This document shows positions 1 through 9,841 of a stretch of 64,000 bases of DNA, in pieces; the first letter of the stretch is position 1, and every line of letters starts with the position of its first letter. Made by a program: the position numbers and the translations under genes. The stretch comes from Bacteroidia bacterium (GTDB lineage: Bacteria > Bacteroidota > Bacteroidia > UKL13-3). The notes under the pieces were generated by a model that had not been told where the DNA came from, did not search any database, and saw nothing but the letters and a program-made list of their open reading frames with translations. Location: NCBI GenBank assembly GCA_019695215.1, contig JAIBAK010000011.1, forward strand, positions 1 to 64,000, given 5' to 3'.

Positions 1-140
1 CGAAAGGATGCCGACTGAACTTTAATCATCACATCAGGGTATTTGCGTATAAGTTCGAGGCATTGCTGCGGGCTCAGGGGCGTACGTAAGTCGGGGGGCT
101 GCTTTTCTTCACGAAGAATTCCAATTTTTAATTTGGTCAT
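1..140 (-). CDS. Saccharopine/alanine dehydrogenase-like protein (partial, N-terminus only)
   Basis: The reverse strand reads from an ATG at 140 and leaves the window after about 46 codons. The peptide begins MTKLKIGILREEKQPPD and continues with RTPLSPQQC and an ELIRKYP stretch. That is the usual N-terminus of the alanine dehydrogenase / NAD+ saccharopine dehydrogenase fold, where REE/K-PPD-R-PL(S/T)P-QC lines the substrate side. Enzymes of this fold reversibly oxidise an amino-acid C-N bond with NAD(P)+ in the cytoplasm. Only the first strands and helix of the N-terminal domain are visible, so the substrate (lysine, alanine or other) cannot be decided. A TANNTTTG box lies 8 nt upstream of the ATG. 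Confidence 0.7.
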   Translation of the reverse strand, partial: MTKLKIGILREEKQPPDLRTPLSPQQCLELIRKYPDVMIKVQSASF

Positions 141-148
141 ATCAAAAA

Positions 149-156
149 CAAAATTA
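149..156 (-). promoter_or_regulatory. -7 promoter box (TAATTTTG)
   Basis: Read on the minus strand, this octamer matches the Bacteroidota primary-sigma -7 consensus TANNTTTG and ends 8 nt before the ATG at 140. It lies just downstream of the terminator at 171-203, so the dehydrogenase-like gene has its own promoter. The leader would be only a few nucleotides long. Confidence 0.45.
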
Positions 157-170
157 GGCAGTTTTTCAAT

Positions 171-203
171 AAAAGAGGCCCCCGAGGTACGGGAGCCTTT
201 TTA
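171..203 (-). terminator. Rho-independent terminator of the T9SS beta-helix gene
   Basis: On the minus strand AGGCTCCCG and CGGGGGCCT pair across a 5-nt loop (TACCT). The single odd pair becomes a U-G wobble in minus-strand RNA but a C-A mismatch in plus-strand RNA, so the hairpin is built for minus transcription. A short U-rich run follows. It lies about 25 nt past the stop codon of the large secreted gene. Confidence 0.75.
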
Positions 204-225
204 TGATTTATTTCTTCGTTAGAGT

Positions 226-3200
226 TTATTTATGACCTTTCACCAAACGCAGGGTATAATTTTGTCCGTTAAGGTTAAAACGGGCATAATACAATCCGAC
301 ACTTAGGTGCTCAGCATTCCAGTTGATTTGGTGCTTACCTGCATTTTGTTGCTCAGCAGGAATATTCATTACCTCCCGACCCATTAAATCTACGATTTTA
401 ACAGACACGATAGTGGTCTGACTTATTGTATAATCAATGGTAACGTTGTTCTCAAATGGATTTGGATAAGCAGTAGCAATCATTCCATTCACTACTTTTC
501 CGCCTGTACCTACGGTACCTACAGTTACATTAGTAGTAGTTGAGTCTGAACAACCGGTGGTCGTATTCAGAACAACCAGCTTGACATTGTAATTTCCGTT
601 GGTAGTGTAAACACAGGTAGGACTTGCAGCAATTGAAGTAGTACTGTTTCCAAAATTCCAGTTGTAATTTACACCTGAAAGCGCATTTGCTTTGAAGGTA
701 ACCTGACCGGCCAGTTGTCCTAGAATAGTGAATGTTGCATCGGGTTTAGCATTAAAAGTAACCACGACCGGAGTTCTGCTGTCACTCGCACACACCCCAT
801 CGTAGGACTCTACATAAAATGTAGTTGTAGCGGTTATTCCTGAAACTAAAATTGATGCTCCTGTATCAATTGGGTTACCTCCCGTAGGACTTACATACCA
901 TTTGAATTGTGGCGAACCAGTAGCATTAAGCATAGCAGGATGACCTTGGCAAACTGATGTGGGGGCTGCTGTTGGTAAGGCAACCACAGTCACCGTCACC
1001 AAAACAGTATCTGTTGAAGTGAAACCCATAGTATCTTTAACTGTTACAACGAAAGAAGTAGTAGTAGCGGGATTAACAACCGGATTGGAAGTAGTAGCAG
1101 ATGAAGGATTCCAGACATATGAATATAATGGAATTCCACCCATAACGGTTGGCGTTCCTCCCAAAGTGATGGACTGTCCTTTACATATCGTTGCATTACT
1201 GCCTGCGTCAACAAGTAGATTAGAAAATGTTGTTGCCTCATGGGCACCCATATAAGTTATATCTTTCCCCCGATTAACCCCAAAATTATCTTCTGAAATT
1301 TCAATGATTGATTTACTCCGTAAATACAGATTACCGATTGATGCACCTGCCAAACGTAAATCAAAAGTAGAATCAACAAAGTTCAAATTCTGATTTTGTG
1401 AATACAAATCAGAACTAACAACGGATTTCCAATCAGAAAGATTATTGCGGTTAACACCATTAAAACTCCCAAGTATACCCTGGGCACTTGTTACGAAATA
1501 GTTATTGTAATTGATTCCAGAAAATGATGTTGTTGCAGTCGTAGCACTATAAATAGCGTAGGATGTTTGAGTACCACTTGAATTAACTATAGAATTACGG
1601 AAAATATTATTACGAACATCAAGATTGGTTGATGCAGATGAGGTAATAGCAAAGGCCGCACTTACATCAGAAGTGGCACCAGTTCGGTTCCAAATTCCAT
1701 ACATATTTACGGTGTTATGAAATAGCCTAACCCCACCTGATCCCCCTTTAATTCGTATACCTACATTGGCATCAGATGTAAGGATTGAGTTACCCTCACC
1801 CCCAATGTCAGAAACCATGTTGTTCGCGATTTCAATAGCCGAATTGACAAGTGAAGTATTTATATCTATCCCTTTCCCTCCTTTTCCACCTGAACCAGTA
1901 TGATTCACTTTATAAATGATGTTACGGCTGATAAACAAATTTGAATCCCCCAAACCCAAATAAATACCCCAAGAATTTTGATCAGATGAAATTACATTCC
2001 TGATAATATTGCGGGAGATAATTCCATTCCTAACGTTGCTATCTAGGGAAATGCCTAAAGGTGCCATACCAGAAATTGAAACAACCCGATTAATTTTGTT
2101 TGAATCGACAACCAGTGAACGAATGGAGGAAAGGAAAAATCCCCCTAAAGCAGCTGTATCAACCGTATTGCCTTTAATGCTAACTAAATCACATTCATTT
2201 CCAGGCGATCCGCTAATTATAAGACCTGCGGTAGAAGATAAGAAATGATTATTTAAAACACTCAAGGAGTCATTATCAGAACCAGGAGTTCCAATAGTCT
2301 CCCCTCCCACAGATATTGCATAGGAATTTACACCTGTGCGTGGCATATAAAAGTCACAATTACGAATGGTATTATTGCTTGCCCCATTTTGGTTTCCTTT
2401 ACTTATTAACTGAATACAACTTGCATTTGATGAAGTTTGATAATTTTTAATTGTGAATAAATTAACCGAGTCCATTGCTCCATAGTGTCCATCAATTTTG
2501 ATTCGGTCAGCCCCATTGATCCTGATTAATCCTCCAGCATAACTTCCACTTATTGTTCTTGGTAAAGTTGTGTCAGGAACTATTGATATGAAGTATCCTG
2601 AACCATTTATTTCAACTGTTGAATTCAAATCAATTGTACCCGTTTCATTGAGATTCGAGGTAATTTTTGCCGTTATGTTACCTGATACCACGTTTTTATT
2701 GACCAAGTCAAAGAACCCTCCTGAATTTGTAAGAGAAGTAATTTGTTGACCTTGTCCAATAAGATAAGTTCCGTTAAGTTGAATGGCAATTTTAAATGAT
2801 GCAATATTGCCTCCTAAAGGGAAATTTACCGCACTCAATGATACTGATACGGGAATAGTATTGAAAGCATAGAAATTTGGACTTCCCGTGTTCCAACCTA
2901 CATTTGGAGCAGACGCCATATCCTGTGCTATGACAAAATATTGAATGATATCACCTAGATTAACCCCACCTCCAGTTAACAAACTATAGTTAATTGTAAA
3001 ATCAAAAGGGGAACTGTTATTATTAGCCTCTACCCATTTCCACCCGTTATCCCCACTGGTGTTACCAGCATAGGCATTTGCTTCTGTATTTCTTTTAAAA
3101 TACAGCCTTGGTTTGGTACCAGACAATGTATCTATCCCTGAGGCATCCGAAATGGTAGCAAAGCTTGAAGTTATTCGATTAGTATATGAAATTGTATTGC

Positions 3201-5958
3201 TTAATGGAGTAAATGAAATGACCGGGGGTATAAATTCACCTCCAGCTTCATATGCCCCAATGGTTGGAGTGGTTCCACTACGTGTGGCTCCCATTAAATC
3301 AGTAGTTATACCTGACACAGGGGTTCCATTCCCAATTAAAACCGACCCTGACAAGGGTCGAAGATTAATATTGCTGTTAAAATTAGGTACGGTATTGATT
3401 GAGGATGTATCCCTTGGGGAGGCTATTGCTGATTTCCAATTAGCCAAGGTTGATTGATCTGCAGAACCTATGTATCCCAAAATACCATTCGGTCCGGAAA
3501 CGAAATAATCATTATTATTAGTTGTATTAACAAACGATGTATTACCTATAGTACTATATACCGCATAACTTTTTGCCCCGGATAATCCGGTTTGAGTATT
3601 AGCGAATACATTATTTCGTAAGTCAATTGTACAAGGAACCATAACCAAGAATGCAGAACTAAAGTGAGGAGTTGTACCTATATTAGGGACAGCGCCAAAA
3701 AGGCTAACCGAATTATGATAGATATTACAAGTTCCTGAAGCGGCAATACGAATCCCAAATGCATTATACGTAGTACTGCTTGTGCTGTAATTCACTGTGG
3801 AAACATCAGCAATATGATTATTTATAATATTTAAACCATTCATTGTTCCCGGACCCACCGAGATACCATAAGCTCCATATCCGTTACTATACTGGTTTCG
3901 GATTCCGGAAATAATATTACCAATAATATACCCTGAATTAATAGTGCCTCCGATACCTATAGCACAAATATTTGATGCCACTCCTCCGGGAATAGAAATA
4001 CCTGAAATATGATTTGATTTAACAAGTGCGACATTGACATGAGAAATCGAAATACCAAAATAAGATACGGTGTATAATGGATTAGCATCACCTAAAACAT
4101 TCTCAGAGATTACAAGATTATCTAATAAACCGGTGGAGGTTCCGGCAACATCAATCCCTATCCAAACTCGCTTAATATTGTTGTTCTTGATTGTAATGTT
4201 ATCATTATCCGGCCCTGTTGAAGTAGAAACAACAACTGTTCCTGCTACAAAAATACCATAAACATCCACTCTTGTTGATCCTCCAATAATATTACAATTC
4301 ATCACGGTATTATTTGTGGCTCCCGATAAGGTTCCTAAACTACCAAAAGCAATAACCGCTGAGGTATTGGTATCTTCATTAAGAATAGTTAAATCTGTTG
4401 TCTTACTGCCACTATTGGAACCATCGAGTGTAACGTAATCAGTTCCTTCAAACATAATGATTGATGAAGCTCTTCCTTTAATGGTAGGGGTTACCCCTGC
4501 ATTGGGTCTTATAGTGATACTATTTACCAAACTTGCTCCAGGAATTACTTTAAATTTAATTGGAAAAGTTTCCGAAGCCGAATAGTCTGCATCAATTAGC
4601 TTAAATATTACAGGGCCACTAACACCAGCCGTGTTGATCACATTGGCCGCCTTTGTAAGAGTTGAAAAATCTCCTCCTGTCCCTACAGTATACACTCCAT
4701 TCAATACCTTCATAATTGGACGCGACCCTGCAGGATCAGTCACGGTTGGAGTATAATTGTTTGCGGCAATCGTTAGTTGGGAACACTGTGCATCTAAATA
4801 ATTTCCGATAATTGCCCCGCTATCTATATCGTAGGCAACCCAAAAGTAATTTACCCCTTTTATGAGTTGTTGCGAACCGGTAATTAAAAACGAATCTGTA
4901 GGCGAATTCACCACCGAGCCAAACTGGTTTGTGGTAGAAAAAACTGAACTGGATCCCGTATAAAAAACCTTAGCCCTACGAATATCTGAAGCTAATGAAC
5001 TACCCGTAACCTTTAATTTGAGCGAAGTAAGACTAAGCGGTGAAGCTACTCCACCTGAAAGCATCACTTGAACTCCTATTATTTGTTGATTTGTTGATCC
5101 GGGAACAGCAAAATTGGTCGTAGCTTGAAAGGTGGTGGAGGATGAATAAGTCATGGGTAATGGAGTCCAGATAAAAGTAAGACCTGATGACGGGGCCACT
5201 GTAGTCGTTATGGTACATACATCTGCGTTAGTAGAACCTGCGGTGGTGGCAGCCCAATTGGTGGTTGTAGTTCGATTAATAAAACTTGAATTGGTATTAC
5301 CCCTTAAACCAACCTGGGCCCAGGCAGTCATTGAGGTGGTAAAACATGTACCATATACAAAGCTAATAAGTTGATTATTTATGACTCCATTTCCTTCATC
5401 TATCCTTAGCTGAAAACTGAACGTTTCCCCGGTATAATAATAAAGCCGAACGTTTGACCACTGAGCTACAAAAGTGCGGTTTGGTGAGCTCCCAAGTACT
5501 TGGTATCGCAATTCAGAACCAGACCCAATACCGGCTAAATCATATGAAAATGGCGCTGCAACTTCAAAACCCGAAACGGTGCTGCTAATTGCAAATTTAG
5601 TTGTAGCACCCGGATCGGTTGAACCGAAACTCATATACCCATTCTCGCTTAAATACACTTGTGAGTAATTAGTCCCATTAAAATTAAATGTGAAGGGTAA
5701 GGTTATTGGAAAGGTGGCATTATCCATTCCACCACCAGAAGAAAGTTGTGTGCCCCCTGTAATGGCTGTATATGTGCCAGAGGTAGAGCTAAAACCATAT
5801 CCAGGTTGAGCAAAAACACTTGAAACATTCACAAACATCATCAAACAGAGTAAAAACATAAAAATCACTGTTCGAAAAGAAACACAATTGAAAATTAATA
5901 CCCCGCCATGAACCCATTTTGTTCGAGCAGAAATTTCTTTTATAAGATTCGATTTCAT
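226..5958 (-). CDS. Giant secreted T9SS-sorted beta-helix protein
   Basis: About 1910 residues counted from the ATG at 5958. An earlier ATG at 5973 touches the -7 box, so I prefer 5958. A basic N-terminus and hydrophobic segment ending near VSSVFAQ form a signal peptide. Next comes a beta-sandwich-like domain with a LSENGYMSFG motif, then about 120 residues resembling the BNR-associated N-terminal (sialidase) domain. Two long right-handed parallel beta-helix regions follow, with many N-x-I and NN turns. Two Ig-like segments and a PKD domain (YNWNFGNSTTS) come next. The C-terminus is a T9SS type A sorting domain with YPNPF, DLMGREV and a final LRLVKGHK. The protein is probably exported by Sec, then across the outer membrane by T9SS, and anchored at the cell surface or released. 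A polysaccharide-binding or lyase role is only inferred from the fold, and no catalytic motif is recognised. Confidence 0.88.
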   Translation of the reverse strand: MKSNLIKEISARTKWVHGGVLIFNCVSFRTVIFMFLLCLMMFVNVSSVFAQPGYGFSSTSGTYTAITGGTQLSSGGGMDNATFPITLPFTFNFNGTNYSQVYLSENGYMSFGSTDPGATTKFAISSTVSGFEVAAPFSYDLAGIGSGSELRYQVLGSSPNRTFVAQWSNVRLYYYTGETFSFQLRIDEGNGVINNQLISFVYGTCFTTSMTAWAQVGLRGNTNSSFINRTTTTNWAATTAGSTNADVCTITTTVAPSSGLTFIWTPLPMTYSSSTTFQATTNFAVPGSTNQQIIGVQVMLSGGVASPLSLTSLKLKVTGSSLASDIRRAKVFYTGSSSVFSTTNQFGSVVNSPTDSFLITGSQQLIKGVNYFWVAYDIDSGAIIGNYLDAQCSQLTIAANNYTPTVTDPAGSRPIMKVLNGVYTVGTGGDFSTLTKAANVINTAGVSGPVIFKLIDADYSASETFPIKFKVIPGASLVNSITIRPNAGVTPTIKGRASSIIMFEGTDYVTLDGSNSGSKTTDLTILNEDTNTSAVIAFGSLGTLSGATNNTVMNCNIIGGSTRVDVYGIFVAGTVVVSTSTGPDNDNITIKNNNIKRVWIGIDVAGTSTGLLDNLVISENVLGDANPLYTVSYFGISISHVNVALVKSNHISGISIPGGVASNICAIGIGGTINSGYIIGNIISGIRNQYSNGYGAYGISVGPGTMNGLNIINNHIADVSTVNYSTSSTTYNAFGIRIAASGTCNIYHNSVSLFGAVPNIGTTPHFSSAFLVMVPCTIDLRNNVFANTQTGLSGAKSYAVYSTIGNTSFVNTTNNNDYFVSGPNGILGYIGSADQSTLANWKSAIASPRDTSSINTVPNFNSNINLRPLSGSVLIGNGTPVSGITTDLMGATRSGTTPTIGAYEAGGEFIPPVISFTPLSNTISYTNRITSSFATISDASGIDTLSGTKPRLYFKRNTEANAYAGNTSGDNGWKWVEANNNSSPFDFTINYSLLTGGGVNLGDIIQYFVIAQDMASAPNVGWNTGSPNFYAFNTIPVSVSLSAVNFPLGGNIASFKIAIQLNGTYLIGQGQQITSLTNSGGFFDLVNKNVVSGNITAKITSNLNETGTIDLNSTVEINGSGYFISIVPDTTLPRTISGSYAGGLIRINGADRIKIDGHYGAMDSVNLFTIKNYQTSSNASCIQLISKGNQNGASNNTIRNCDFYMPRTGVNSYAISVGGETIGTPGSDNDSLSVLNNHFLSSTAGLIISGSPGNECDLVSIKGNTVDTAALGGFFLSSIRSLVVDSNKINRVVSISGMAPLGISLDSNVRNGIISRNIIRNVISSDQNSWGIYLGLGDSNLFISRNIIYKVNHTGSGGKGGKGIDINTSLVNSAIEIANNMVSDIGGEGNSILTSDANVGIRIKGGSGGVRLFHNTVNMYGIWNRTGATSDVSAAFAITSSASTNLDVRNNIFRNSIVNSSGTQTSYAIYSATTATTSFSGINYNNYFVTSAQGILGSFNGVNRNNLSDWKSVVSSDLYSQNQNLNFVDSTFDLRLAGASIGNLYLRSKSIIEISEDNFGVNRGKDITYMGAHEATTFSNLLVDAGSNATICKGQSITLGGTPTVMGGIPLYSYVWNPSSATTSNPVVNPATTTSFVVTVKDTMGFTSTDTVLVTVTVVALPTAAPTSVCQGHPAMLNATGSPQFKWYVSPTGGNPIDTGASILVSGITATTTFYVESYDGVCASDSRTPVVVTFNAKPDATFTILGQLAGQVTFKANALSGVNYNWNFGNSTTSIAASPTCVYTTNGNYNVKLVVLNTTTGCSDSTTTNVTVGTVGTGGKVVNGMIATAYPNPFENNVTIDYTISQTTIVSVKIVDLMGREVMNIPAEQQNAGKHQINWNAEHLSVGLYYARFNLNGQNYTLRLVKGHK
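454..545 (-). repeat. 92-bp direct repeat, copy 1 (T9SS linker and start of sorting domain)
   Basis: This stretch encodes the end of the PKD domain, the linker TVGTGGKVVNG and the start of the sorting domain (ATAYPNPF). It aligns without gaps to 6451-6542 with five mismatches in 92 positions by my count. The rest of the two sorting domains is clearly more divergent, so similarity is concentrated here. Confidence 0.85.
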
Positions 5959-5973
5959 AGAAAAAAATATCAT

Positions 5974-5981
5974 CAAAAATA
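5974..5981 (-). promoter_or_regulatory. -7 promoter box (TATTTTTG) of the T9SS gene
   Basis: On the minus strand this TANNTTTG match abuts the first possible ATG (5973) and lies 15 nt before the preferred ATG at 5958. Transcription would start about where the upstream ATG is, which argues for translation from 5958. Confidence 0.45.
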
Positions 5982-6172
5982 TAAAAAAGATGAAACTATA
6001 AAAACCTCGGCTAAAATATTTGCTGGGAAAAAAATAATAACTTGAAAAGACTTCTTATTAGTTCTAACTGGAATATTTATGAATAAGTTGGTTAAAGTCT
6101 AATCGTGTTTGGCTGGTTACCTTCTTTCATTGATTAATTCAGACTTTGCCTTTATTGAGGTGGTGTAAATAT

Positions 6173-6206
6173 AAAAGCCCCTTCGTTTCACAACGAAGGG
6201 GCTTTT
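6173..6206. terminator. Strong bidirectional terminator hairpin
   Basis: AAAAGCCCCTTCGTT and AACGAAGGGGCTTTT form a perfect 15-bp stem with a 4-nt loop (TCAC), and T-rich sequence lies on both sides. It follows the remnant at 6223-6548 on the minus strand. Because that remnant is fused to the sugar-transferase gene, the hairpin now ends the polysaccharide operon. Confidence 0.9.
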
Positions 6207-6222
6207 TAGGAATTTGACAACT

Positions 6223-6548
6223 TTATTTACCTGCTTTAATGAGACGGAGAGTTTCAACCTGTCCATCTATTGTTAAACGAACATAATAAATTCCAGCAGC
6301 CAGATTAGCCGCATTCCAGTCAATTTCATGTTTACCAGCATCTTTACTTTCAGTCGGGATGCTGTATAATTCACGTCCGGTAATGTCAACAATGCTCGCA
6401 CCAACTTCAGCTGGTTTGCTAATAGTATATATAATCAAGGTATGCTGATCAAATGGATTTGGATAAGCAGTAGCCATCATTCCATTCACTACTTTTCCGC
6501 CAGTACCCACGGTACCTACGGTTACATTAGTAGTGGTTGAGTACAACC
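6223..6548 (-). pseudogene. Decapitated 3' remnant of a T9SS-sorted protein gene
   Basis: About 105 codons in one frame encode the tail of a PKD domain, the linker TVGTGGKVVNG and a complete T9SS type A sorting domain (AYPNPF, DITGRELYS, GIYYVRLTIDG, ending LRLIKAGK). There is no signal peptide and no upstream passenger. The frame runs straight back into the stop codon of the sugar transferase (6556-6558), with only a TTG as possible start. Alignment with the paralogous gene at 226-5958 suggests a 4-bp deletion near 6543, at the point where homology stops. A sorting domain without an export signal cannot reach the T9SS, so this is most likely the leftover end of a lost secreted protein gene. 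An assembly collapse between the two near-identical linkers is the alternative. Confidence 0.8.
6451..6542 (-). repeat. 92-bp direct repeat, copy 2 (inside the T9SS remnant)
   Basis: Partner of 454-545, about 95% identical over 92 bp and in the same orientation, roughly 6 kb apart. Such a direct repeat could support recombination that swaps or deletes T9SS passengers. Confidence 0.85.
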
Positions 6549-6555
6549 TTGCCGA

Positions 6556-7974
6556 TTACTTTCCCCTGCCCTGAACGATGATGAGAATGGTATAGATAAG
6601 TATTTTGAGATCAACTGCCAGAGACATGTTTTCGATATAGATAATATCAAATTTGAGTCGCTCTATCATTTGGTCAACGTTTTCGGCATAGCCATATTTT
6701 ACCTGCCCCCAAGAGGTTATTCCCGGTTTTACTTTATGCAGGTGTTTGTAATGCGGGGCCCTGGCTACAATCTGGTCAATAAAAAACTGGCGTTCGGGTC
6801 GGGGCCCTACCAAGCTCATCTCCCCTATAAGTACATTATAAAATTGTGGCAATTCGTCAAACCTGAACTTCCGCAGAAACAACCCGAATGGTGTAATGCG
6901 CTTATCATTCTTACTAGATAAGGCAGGACCTTCCTTTTCGGCATCCGTGTACATAGTACGAAACTTATGAATGAAAAATGGTTTGCCATGCAATCCAATT
7001 CGCTCCTGTTTAAAAAAAGCCGGTCCCTTAGACGATAACTTTACTCCTAAAGCAATGAGCAAATAAATTGGAGAACCTATTAGTAAAACAAAAAAGGAAA
7101 CAAAAATATCGAATCCCCGTTTAACAGCCTGTTGCCAGGAAGACATAATTTCATGCCTTATTTCAATGAGTGCTGTTCCGAAAATATGATTCATTTTTAC
7201 TGAACCCGAGACAATATCATACATATCAGGAATAATTTTTATGATCACATTTTCATCTTCCAGAATATTTATAATCTCGTTCAGCTTTTTATGTTCCGAA
7301 CTCTCAATAGCAATAATCACTTCTTCAATCTCATTTGAATGGATAAACTGAGGAAGTTGTGTGTAATCTCCCAATTGGGGTAAATGACCGGATAAAAGGT
7401 GCTGCTCGTCACTTCCCTTAACAGTAACAAACCCGTTTAAAAAATACCCCTGAGATCTTTTCTCAGATTGCAATTCGGTAAAAAGTTCGAGTGCCTTTTG
7501 GTTAGAACCTACTATTAGGGTATTAAATCCAATTTCCCTGTTTCGTATTTTTCGCCCTGTAATGGTGGTTAGAATAAAACGCCCGATAACAGTTAAAGTA
7601 AAATGCAGGGCAAACAGGGTTAAAAAAGTACGGTAATATGCACGGTACGATTGAACCTCATCATCCAAAAGCAATAGGAAAAATAAACCGAGTACTCCTA
7701 TAAATACCACTTGTAGCGTTTGCAGCACTTCATTGAGCCGGGCCTTGCGGTAAATATCGTGATAGGTACCTGTAGCAAAATAAACAGCAATCCAATAAAG
7801 GGGTATAAGCAACAAGCCAAGATAAAGTTTTGTATCAGGCTGTACAGGAATCTGGTCTCCGAATTTTTCGGTTTCAATTATTAGTTTACGATAAGCAAAA
7901 AACGAAAACCAGGCAACCGCTGCTGCCAGGTAATCGAGTGCCATGTATTTAAATACCTGTAGGCGCTTATTCAA
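6556..7974 (-). CDS. Undecaprenyl-phosphate sugar (glucose) phosphotransferase
   Basis: 472 residues. It transfers a sugar-1-phosphate from a nucleotide sugar to undecaprenyl phosphate, the first membrane step of exopolysaccharide or O-antigen unit assembly. Four hydrophobic segments lie in roughly the first 135 residues, followed by a soluble Rossmann-like region (about 145-260). A further membrane segment and the bacterial sugar transferase domain (about 285-472) follow, with KFRTM, DELPQFYNVL and MSLVGPRPE. The full-length C-terminus ends in IIVQGRGK, so it is intact despite the remnant fused 7 nt behind it. I keep the TTG start at 7974 because the N-terminus MNKRLQVFKY resembles homologues. 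It overlaps the previous stop codon by 8 nt, which suggests translational coupling. The next ATG is at 7944. Confidence 0.9.
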   Translation of the reverse strand: MNKRLQVFKYMALDYLAAAVAWFSFFAYRKLIIETEKFGDQIPVQPDTKLYLGLLLIPLYWIAVYFATGTYHDIYRKARLNEVLQTLQVVFIGVLGLFFLLLLDDEVQSYRAYYRTFLTLFALHFTLTVIGRFILTTITGRKIRNREIGFNTLIVGSNQKALELFTELQSEKRSQGYFLNGFVTVKGSDEQHLLSGHLPQLGDYTQLPQFIHSNEIEEVIIAIESSEHKKLNEIINILEDENVIIKIIPDMYDIVSGSVKMNHIFGTALIEIRHEIMSSWQQAVKRGFDIFVSFFVLLIGSPIYLLIALGVKLSSKGPAFFKQERIGLHGKPFFIHKFRTMYTDAEKEGPALSSKNDKRITPFGLFLRKFRFDELPQFYNVLIGEMSLVGPRPERQFFIDQIVARAPHYKHLHKVKPGITSWGQVKYGYAENVDQMIERLKFDIIYIENMSLAVDLKILIYTILIIVQGRGK

Positions 7975-8863
7975 AGCGTACGAGTTTTACGTTGTCAATA
8001 TAAATTTGCGGAGTATACCCCGTTGAAGTTTTAGCCGAGCCAAAGAAAATTTTGAATTTTGAATTTGGTTCCTGCGATGAAATATCCTCCTTCAAACTCA
8101 AATAAAGTTTATGCCAGGTAGTATCGGTTGGATATAAACTCAGAATGGGCACCTGCTGGACGTCTCCTGAATTTCCTTCAGTTACATAAAATCCTGTAGT
8201 GAACTGATAATTGCACCGGTAATCCAATTCCAGATAAACTTCATTTCCAGATGAGGGAAGCTGATATTCATTCAGTGTTGTTACTTCAACAATGGTAGTA
8301 TCATTTTTAATTTCAATTAATGCCGAACCTCCGCTACCTCCCCAGGCATAAGGTTTACCCGTTACCCTATAAAAAGTATCAAGCACTCCGTGTTTATATA
8401 ATTCAAATTTAGTACTGGGTTCATCAAAGGCCTCTATCAGTTCAAATTTAGTATTGGGTTTATACGAAATGGTAATGGGTCCAAGCGAATCGACAACTTT
8501 AGGTAATAACGTTGCGTATTTAACATACCCCGCATAAAACGGGTAGTAAATTCTCAGGTTACTTTGTCCGTTTTTTCTCACTCCTGCACGTATTTCTACT
8601 TTGGTGTAGCCGGTAGCTAAAACCGGAATAGTAGCCGGCAACTGGTAAACTCCCTGCAAGGCATCGTTAATATAGACCCACCCGTCTAATATTTGATTAG
8701 AGGCAGCACCCTGACTGCCGGAAGTGGTTAACGTAATTTGAGGAATGTAGAGGTAAGACGGAATCGACTCGTCAGGATTAATCACGTTGCAGCCAAATGG
8801 CGCAAGAATAATTGTACCGATTATTAGTCGGGCAAGCCACAGTTTAAATGGCATTTGGGTCAT
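7967..8863 (-). CDS. Predicted lipoprotein of unknown function in the polysaccharide operon
   Basis: 298 residues. The N-terminus has a hydrophobic segment ending in LAPFGC, a lipobox, so the mature protein should be lipidated at that cysteine and sit in the periplasm or on the outer membrane. The rest is rich in beta strands and aromatic residues (ILDGWVYIND, YYPFYAGYV). The C-terminal half, with SLYPTDTTWHKLYLSL and PQIYIDNVKLVRF, looks like a carbohydrate-binding jelly-roll, but I cannot assign a family. It lies between the Gfo/Idh-like gene (12 nt upstream) and the sugar transferase (8-nt overlap), so a part in polysaccharide export or attachment is reasonable inference only. Confidence 0.75.
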   Translation of the reverse strand: MTQMPFKLWLARLIIGTIILAPFGCNVINPDESIPSYLYIPQITLTTSGSQGAASNQILDGWVYINDALQGVYQLPATIPVLATGYTKVEIRAGVRKNGQSNLRIYYPFYAGYVKYATLLPKVVDSLGPITISYKPNTKFELIEAFDEPSTKFELYKHGVLDTFYRVTGKPYAWGGSGGSALIEIKNDTTIVEVTTLNEYQLPSSGNEVYLELDYRCNYQFTTGFYVTEGNSGDVQQVPILSLYPTDTTWHKLYLSLKEDISSQEPNSKFKIFFGSAKTSTGYTPQIYIDNVKLVRFE

Positions 8864-8875
8864 AGATATTATTTT

Positions 8876-9841
8876 TTAATCAAGTGCATTTTTACTGATT
8901 TTTTCCAAAATCAGCTGGGCAACGTACATGGCCTGATATGCATCGCTCACGCTTACAACCGGCCGGGTATTGCCTTTTATTGATTGCAAAAATAACTCTA
9001 ATTCTGTTTTTACCCTATTAGATTCTGCTACCGAATTTTCAAATACACTCACATGGTCATTTACCTTACCCGAAAGCAATTGCTGAAGTTCTATCGGAGT
9101 GAGTCGTCCGTTTTGCCTGTTATGCTGCACTACTTCGTAACTATTTTTGGCAAAGTCAATGGCAACGTAAGAGTTATATCCGAAAACTCTGATTTTGCTC
9201 ATTTGCTGACGGGAGATTCGGCTCGCAGTTAAGTTTACCACGCAACCGTTATCAAACTCCAATCGCACATTGGCCATATCATGATCAGCAGTAACTACCG
9301 AAACGCCACTGGCGCTCAATTTTTTAACATTTGAATTGACTAAATGAAGCACAATATCCAAATCATGTATCATATGATTCATAATAATTGAACCCTCGGC
9401 ACTATGGACATCAAAAGGCATAAGCCGATGCACTTCTATAAACATTGGTTTTTGAATATAGGCCCGCGCGGCAATAAATGCAGGATTTAAACGCTCGGAT
9501 AATCCTATTTGAAACTGAACATTTGCTTCGTGCGCAAGATTTTTCAATTTCCCGGCCTGCTCTACATTTACTTCAAACGGTACATCTAAAAACAGGTGTT
9601 TGGCTGAACGAAGAACGCTTTGGGCAATGTCAAATGAATAATGCGGACTTGAAACAACTACTGCATCTGAAGATCTTATTAATTCATTGGGAGAAGTAAC
9701 AAGTAGCGATTTGTGCTGGTCACTTAGTTTCACATCGCCTCCGATGTAGCACCCCACCGGATTTACTCCGGGTAACTCATTCAGCGTCTCAACCAGAGTA
9801 TTTACTTTAGCTGATGTGCCTACAATGCCAACGTTAATCAT
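8876..9841 (-). CDS. Gfo/Idh/MocA-family protein lacking the EKP lysine
   Basis: 321 residues. An N-terminal Rossmann fold (MINVGIVGTSAKVNTLV) is followed by the beta-sheet domain of Gfo/Idh/MocA oxidoreductases, which oxidise or reduce sugars, often nucleotide sugars, with NAD(P)(H). The family signature E-K-P, whose lysine helps catalysis, should fall after the AKHLFL strand near residue 93. Here it reads LDVPFEV, with no lysine. The dinucleotide loop is also relaxed. The GLSERLNPA and MNHMIHDLDIVLHL segments that shape the active site are kept. It may be a divergent enzyme or a sugar-binding regulator. It is first in the operon with the lipoprotein and sugar transferase, under a TAATTTTG box. 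Confidence 0.82.
   Translation of the reverse strand: MINVGIVGTSAKVNTLVETLNELPGVNPVGCYIGGDVKLSDQHKSLLVTSPNELIRSSDAVVVSSPHYSFDIAQSVLRSAKHLFLDVPFEVNVEQAGKLKNLAHEANVQFQIGLSERLNPAFIAARAYIQKPMFIEVHRLMPFDVHSAEGSIIMNHMIHDLDIVLHLVNSNVKKLSASGVSVVTADHDMANVRLEFDNGCVVNLTASRISRQQMSKIRVFGYNSYVAIDFAKNSYEVVQHNRQNGRLTPIELQQLLSGKVNDHVSVFENSVAESNRVKTELELFLQSIKGNTRPVVSVSDAYQAMYVAQLILEKISKNALD

Follow-up and report, generated by a model that had tools for sequence, protein, structure and literature searches.

At the hagA-kgp locus of Porphyromonas gingivalis, recombination between tandem T9SS cargo genes whose 3′ ends are nearly identical leads to loss of kgp, and in strain HG66 remnants of both hagA and kgp lie between them (PMC9328147). 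This locus (variants BE1 and BR1; strain HG66) is the nearest documented case to the one described here (PMC9328147). Both involve tandem T9SS cargo genes, with near-identical sorting-domain-encoding 3′ ends at hagA-kgp, and the loss of one gene at hagA-kgp has its probable counterpart here. However, homologous recombination at hagA-kgp leaves an in-frame shortened hagA, whereas here a tail alone is left and the apparent breakpoint lies outside the repeat; furthermore, the repeat is the whole 3′ end in P. gingivalis and the linker here.

Surface proteins of P. gingivalis also undergo domain rearrangement and allelic exchange between strains (PMC5266723). There, as in the genes described below, recombination puts parts of T9SS-exported surface proteins together in new ways, but that exchange takes place between strains and affects other domains, while ours concerns paralogs in one genome and has its boundary at the sorting domain. 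The literature searched, outside which most subscription journals lie, gave no description of sorting-domain exchange among dispersed and tandem paralogs, and no paper dealing with T9SS sorting domains together with domain shuffling or tandem paralogous recombination.

An orphan sorting domain behind a glycosylphosphotransferase gene

The window is the whole stretch of DNA that was analysed, 64,000 nucleotides in length. On its minus strand the gene order is transferase, orphan sorting domain, terminator hairpin, a 1916-residue cargo gene and the start of a dehydrogenase-like gene:

6556..7974, minus strand: exopolysaccharide (EPS) polyprenyl glycosylphosphotransferase gene (TIGR03025, 409.5 bits)
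6543..6555, minus strand: putative junction of the deletion; roughly 5 nt following the transferase stop are in common with MAG SW_8 (TAATYGGC), then comes GGTTGT from the end of a PKD domain
6449..6542, minus strand: linker tract, 95% identical to 452-545, ending at the codon after YPNPF
6226..6465, minus strand: orphan type A T9SS C-terminal sorting domain, YPNPF to LIKAGK, intact (TIGR04183, PF18962, AlphaFold model)
6173..6206, minus strand: strong rho-independent terminator hairpin of the putative lost gene (fold -25.4 kcal/mol, z -7.5)
226..5976, minus strand: tandem T9SS cargo paralog, 1916 aa from the first start codon (BNR_assoc_N, Ig_7, PKD, sorting domain)
452..545, minus strand: partner copy of the linker

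The orphan reading frame (6223-6546, minus strand, from the ORF list and the sequence) encodes 107 amino acids from a TTG start, which lies 9 nt 3′ of the transferase TAA (6556-6558). It holds a complete type A T9SS sorting domain, scoring 50.9 bits against TIGR04183 (cut-off 23; model positions 1-71 of 72) and 36.1 bits against PF18962 (cut-off 27). A linker of approximately 25 residues precedes the domain and nothing precedes the linker. Reading the sequence directly, we found that the frame begins in the linker without an N-terminal Sec signal peptide, that the passenger is absent, with a stop-to-stop frame of 110 codons, and that there is no coding sequence between the transferase stop and the orphan. 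An earlier note had described a complete sorting domain lacking both signal peptide and passenger, and this description holds. The orphan is thus like a T9SS type A sorting domain in its scores above the curated cut-offs, its YPNPF motif, its predicted Ig-like fold and its lysine-containing end, but without signal peptide and passenger it is not T9SS cargo.

The AlphaFold model of the orphan (pLDDT 77.6 overall, around 80-89 across the domain) predicts seven strands in an Ig-like β-sandwich. Its best fold match in the PDB is PorU (6za2, E 4e-4), and comparison with the C-terminal domain of mirolase (8qb1) gave a TM score of 0.65 by target length. The orphan sequence itself found no significant match in the PDB, and only two matches, both weak and partial, among viral contigs. 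The genome encodes around 150 sorting domains and an intact PorU. Among the 151 sorting-domain ORFs collected from it the orphan is the shortest, the next shortest having 164 codons from stop to stop; it is known from one genome of the species.

For comparison we used two congeners, MAG SW_8 (G001), whose transferase is 92% identical, and MAG Gw_SlAct_bin_253 (G002), whose transferase is 75% identical. The transferase C-terminus is complete (model position 443 of 445) and is the same in both congeners, so the transferase was not truncated by the event. At its stop the window has TAATYGGC in common with G001 and then diverges from it, continuing with GGTTGT and then the linker, with 4 nt missing relative to the paralog. 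Judged from this alignment, the left breakpoint appears to lie about 5 nt past the transferase stop and in no repeat, a position that favours plain deletion over recombination between C-terminal ends.

Translation through the transferase TAA gives S-A-R-L-Y-STTTNV..., in agreement with the earlier observation that the orphan shares the frame of the transferase stop. The suggestion that read-through might fuse the sorting domain to the transferase is not credible. The stop is TAA followed by T; moreover, the transferase is presumably, as is usual in its family, an inner-membrane enzyme with a cytoplasmic catalytic C-terminus, and a periplasmic sorting domain fused there could not work.

The hairpin at 6173-6206 is the first terminator now met 3′ of the transferase gene, and may now end the transferase transcript. 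It was not detected by a generic terminator scan, although the fold shows it clearly. Promoter matches were no more numerous than in shuffled sequences, and Rfam gave no match within positions 1-9000. At the other end, positions 1-140 of the window hold an AlaDh_PNT_N-type dehydrogenase gene cut by the contig start. Residues 36-401 of the dehydrogenase are encoded at the start of another contig (G000:C46:1-1098), which makes C55 and C46 neighbours.

The shared linker and the slot in related genomes

The orphan linker is identical to 452-545 at 89 of 94 bases, and four of the five mismatches are synonymous. The tract is therefore 94 bp rather than the 92 bp first noted, with the same five mismatches, and the partner gene named earlier is confirmed, although its length is 1916 rather than 1910 residues from the first start codon. 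The homology may extend a further 6 nt upstream (GGTTGT) across the 4-nt deletion. The copy at 452-545 is the only other one in the 3.3-Mb genome, the next matches being chance ones of 15-23 nt, and this answers the call for a search for further copies. By alignment the longest exact run common to both linkers is at most 27 bp.

The remainder of the sorting domain differs, as had been noted, and the transition is sharp. A change point falls at nt 92 of the 315-nt alignment, at YPNPF-D/E, with identity 0.95 before and 0.56 after it (0.83 and 0.32 at third codon positions), and its likelihood was reached by none of 2000 permutations. Only the 3′ end of the high-identity tract is visible, the 5′ end being deleted. 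In the linker dS is 0.19 and dN 0.015, whereas in the remaining domain dN is 0.45 and dS is saturated; neighbouring genes compared with G001 have dS of 1.0-1.5. Hence the copy from which both linkers descend is much younger than the species split, while the common copy of the two sorting domains is far older than that of the linkers. When more than 220 domains were compared, the sorting domains of the orphan and the 1916-residue protein nonetheless matched each other best (score 195), with the G002 gene in the syntenic position as the second-best match of both (153 and 164). Derivation of the orphan domain from an unrelated gene was rejected on these matches, since the adjacent gene comes first and the syntenic gene next. 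The two sorting domains are thus local paralogs of long standing whose linker was exchanged recently.

The gene order before the transferase is the same in the window genome and both congeners, and a dehydrogenase-like (AlaDh_PNT-like) gene lies beyond the slot in all three. The slot itself differs. In G002 it holds one intact T9SS gene of 2269 residues between the transferase and the dehydrogenase-like gene, whose product is 47% identical to the 1916-residue protein across most of its length. In G001 there is no intact gene, only a 510-bp scar, which retains a shred of PKD/linker sequence, TCGSDSTTTALNVVSIG, with a score of 46; none of 1000 randomised scars reached this score, the maximum being 39. 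The window has the orphan tail and the whole 1916-aa gene, and the orphan is absent at this place in both congeners. The comparison with relatives proposed earlier therefore finds a full-length T9SS gene in exactly the same slot of one congener and a scar in the other, which backs the view of the orphan as the remnant of a T9SS cargo gene. Large T9SS cargo genes come and go repeatedly in this slot. A CotH-domain T9SS cargo gene directly follows the same transferase in three MAGs of Flavobacteriales/Vicingaceae that are more distant (L130, L139 and L164), an arrangement which indicates that a cargo gene behind the transferase recurs with other passengers.

Origin of the orphan

Very probably the 1916-residue gene once had a tandem neighbour, and the orphan is the end of that neighbour, left behind by a plain deletion, with the exchange of the linker as a separate event. 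Two cargo genes would first have stood in tandem in the slot of this lineage, their sorting domains already old and diverged. Recent recombination, by gene conversion or unequal crossover, could then have made the linkers alike up to the YPNPF motif, and the DNA upstream was probably made alike by the same recombination. A separate deletion from about 5 nt past the transferase stop to just before the linker would have taken the first gene's promoter along with the parts for its signal peptide and passenger, while the linker, sorting domain and terminator stayed. We infer both this order of exchange and deletion and the nature of the lost passenger. The relic would have no function in secretion. 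As a gene relic it is ordinary, and it belongs with cases of the hagA-kgp type.

A false join between the transferase contig and the end of a full-length T9SS gene, which would mean that no real orphan exists, is highly improbable. The genome is a draft of 82 contigs, 90% complete and with many T9SS repeats, and the contig itself ends 226 bp past the 1916-aa gene. However, exact identity between the linkers never extends beyond 27 bp, and the join is beside the transferase stop rather than in the repeat. G001, an independent assembly, likewise has no intact gene in the slot, and truncated tails occur in the single-contig genome G023, so that short orphan domains as a class are not an assembly artefact. 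Still less probable is that the orphan works as a small protein in its own right, translated from TTG 6546 or an internal ATG, with the free-standing sorting domain acting on the T9SS. Its frame is undamaged, predicted to fold and in an operon position in a genome with an intact PorU; the absence of stops or frameshifts agrees with a recent deletion, but would suit an expressed peptide as well. Yet a product without a signal peptide has no route to the periplasm, both congeners lack the orphan at this place, and the frame begins inside a truncated linker.

The least probable origin is recombination between repeated C-terminal ends alone, the deletion route proposed in the earlier note. The linker tract is indeed a 94-bp near-identical repeat, and tandem cargo genes of P. 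gingivalis do lose DNA via repeated ends (PMC9328147). But a crossover between tails would yield one fused gene, with passenger A and sorting domain B. Nor could it account for a left breakpoint 5 nt past the transferase stop, a place that lacks the repeat. The other route offered there, gene conversion of the linker, is compatible with the recent exchange between the two local paralogs, which the linker dS of 0.19 supports. Plain deletion of a tandem neighbour, with linker exchange apart from it, is the reading we retain.

Mosaic cargo genes and truncated tails

Among the 151 sorting-domain ORFs of the genome, at least four further groups of genes are mosaics of passenger and sorting domain, as judged by BLAST and by eye rather than by a formal recombination test. 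In these the passenger and the sorting domain have different nearest relatives, and the joint coincides with the point where the sorting domain begins or is close to it. The mosaic loci are on contigs C70, C58, C60, C76, C44 and C18 of G000 (L284, L297, L055, L056, L245, L290 and L281).

The gene at C70:6971-11167 is 84-90% identical in nucleotides to C58:4301-7120 as far as +32 nt into the sorting domain; from there on the figure is 46%. Its sorting domain is instead 90% identical in nucleotides to that of C70:3301-6084, the gene in tandem with it, whereas the passengers of these two are only about 50% identical. The tandem genes of C60 (11587-13035 and 13032-14477) have sorting domains 94% identical in nucleotides (dS 0.14) and passengers near background. 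A pair on C76 (25345-27618 and 27691-30063) has sorting domains at 87% and passengers likewise near background, and between C44 and C18 the linker and domain are 87% identical. The C70 mosaic recurs on C84 of G001, an independent assembly, and hence predates the split of the two species.

These groups bear out the earlier hint of recombination near the boundary of passenger and sorting domain. We lean towards the view that this boundary is a recurrent recombination joint in the lineage, with sorting domains passing as modules from one T9SS cargo gene to another. Among 71 domains sampled in G001, one match was confined to the sorting domain, and its partner was a fragment truncated at a contig end; no boundary mosaics were seen in the sampled part of G023 (55 domains), so we do not claim the exchange to be universal.

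The use of the orphan is as a pointer to several clean cases in which a T9SS export tag and the exported protein have different histories, one of which dates from before two species separated. If the exchange is real, it would offer Bacteroidota, with 100-150 cargo genes per genome, a route to build new cargo and to homogenise tags, and trees of sorting domains would differ from trees of the proteins that carry them.

Truncated sorting-domain tails are common in the family. G023, a family genome in a single contig, contains nine frames for sorting domains with fewer than 135 codons each, of which some may be simple frameshifts. Two of its orphan sorting-domain frames (L404 and L405; G023:C1:1357985-1358314 and 699289-699630) directly adjoin or overlap the ends of 336-codon ORFs; these ORFs are nearly identical and resemble transposase copies, and one of the tails is in frame with the stop of its ORF. 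In G001 a 65-codon tail (L350; G001:C65:4997-5191) lies beside the signal-peptide stub of a protease-like gene whose body was apparently deleted, and a further truncated sorting-domain tail is found in a decaying gene at C84:693-1004. G023 also carries three tandem T9SS genes of approximately 3050 residues each with partial similarity to one another (L399; G023:C1:239001-259659).
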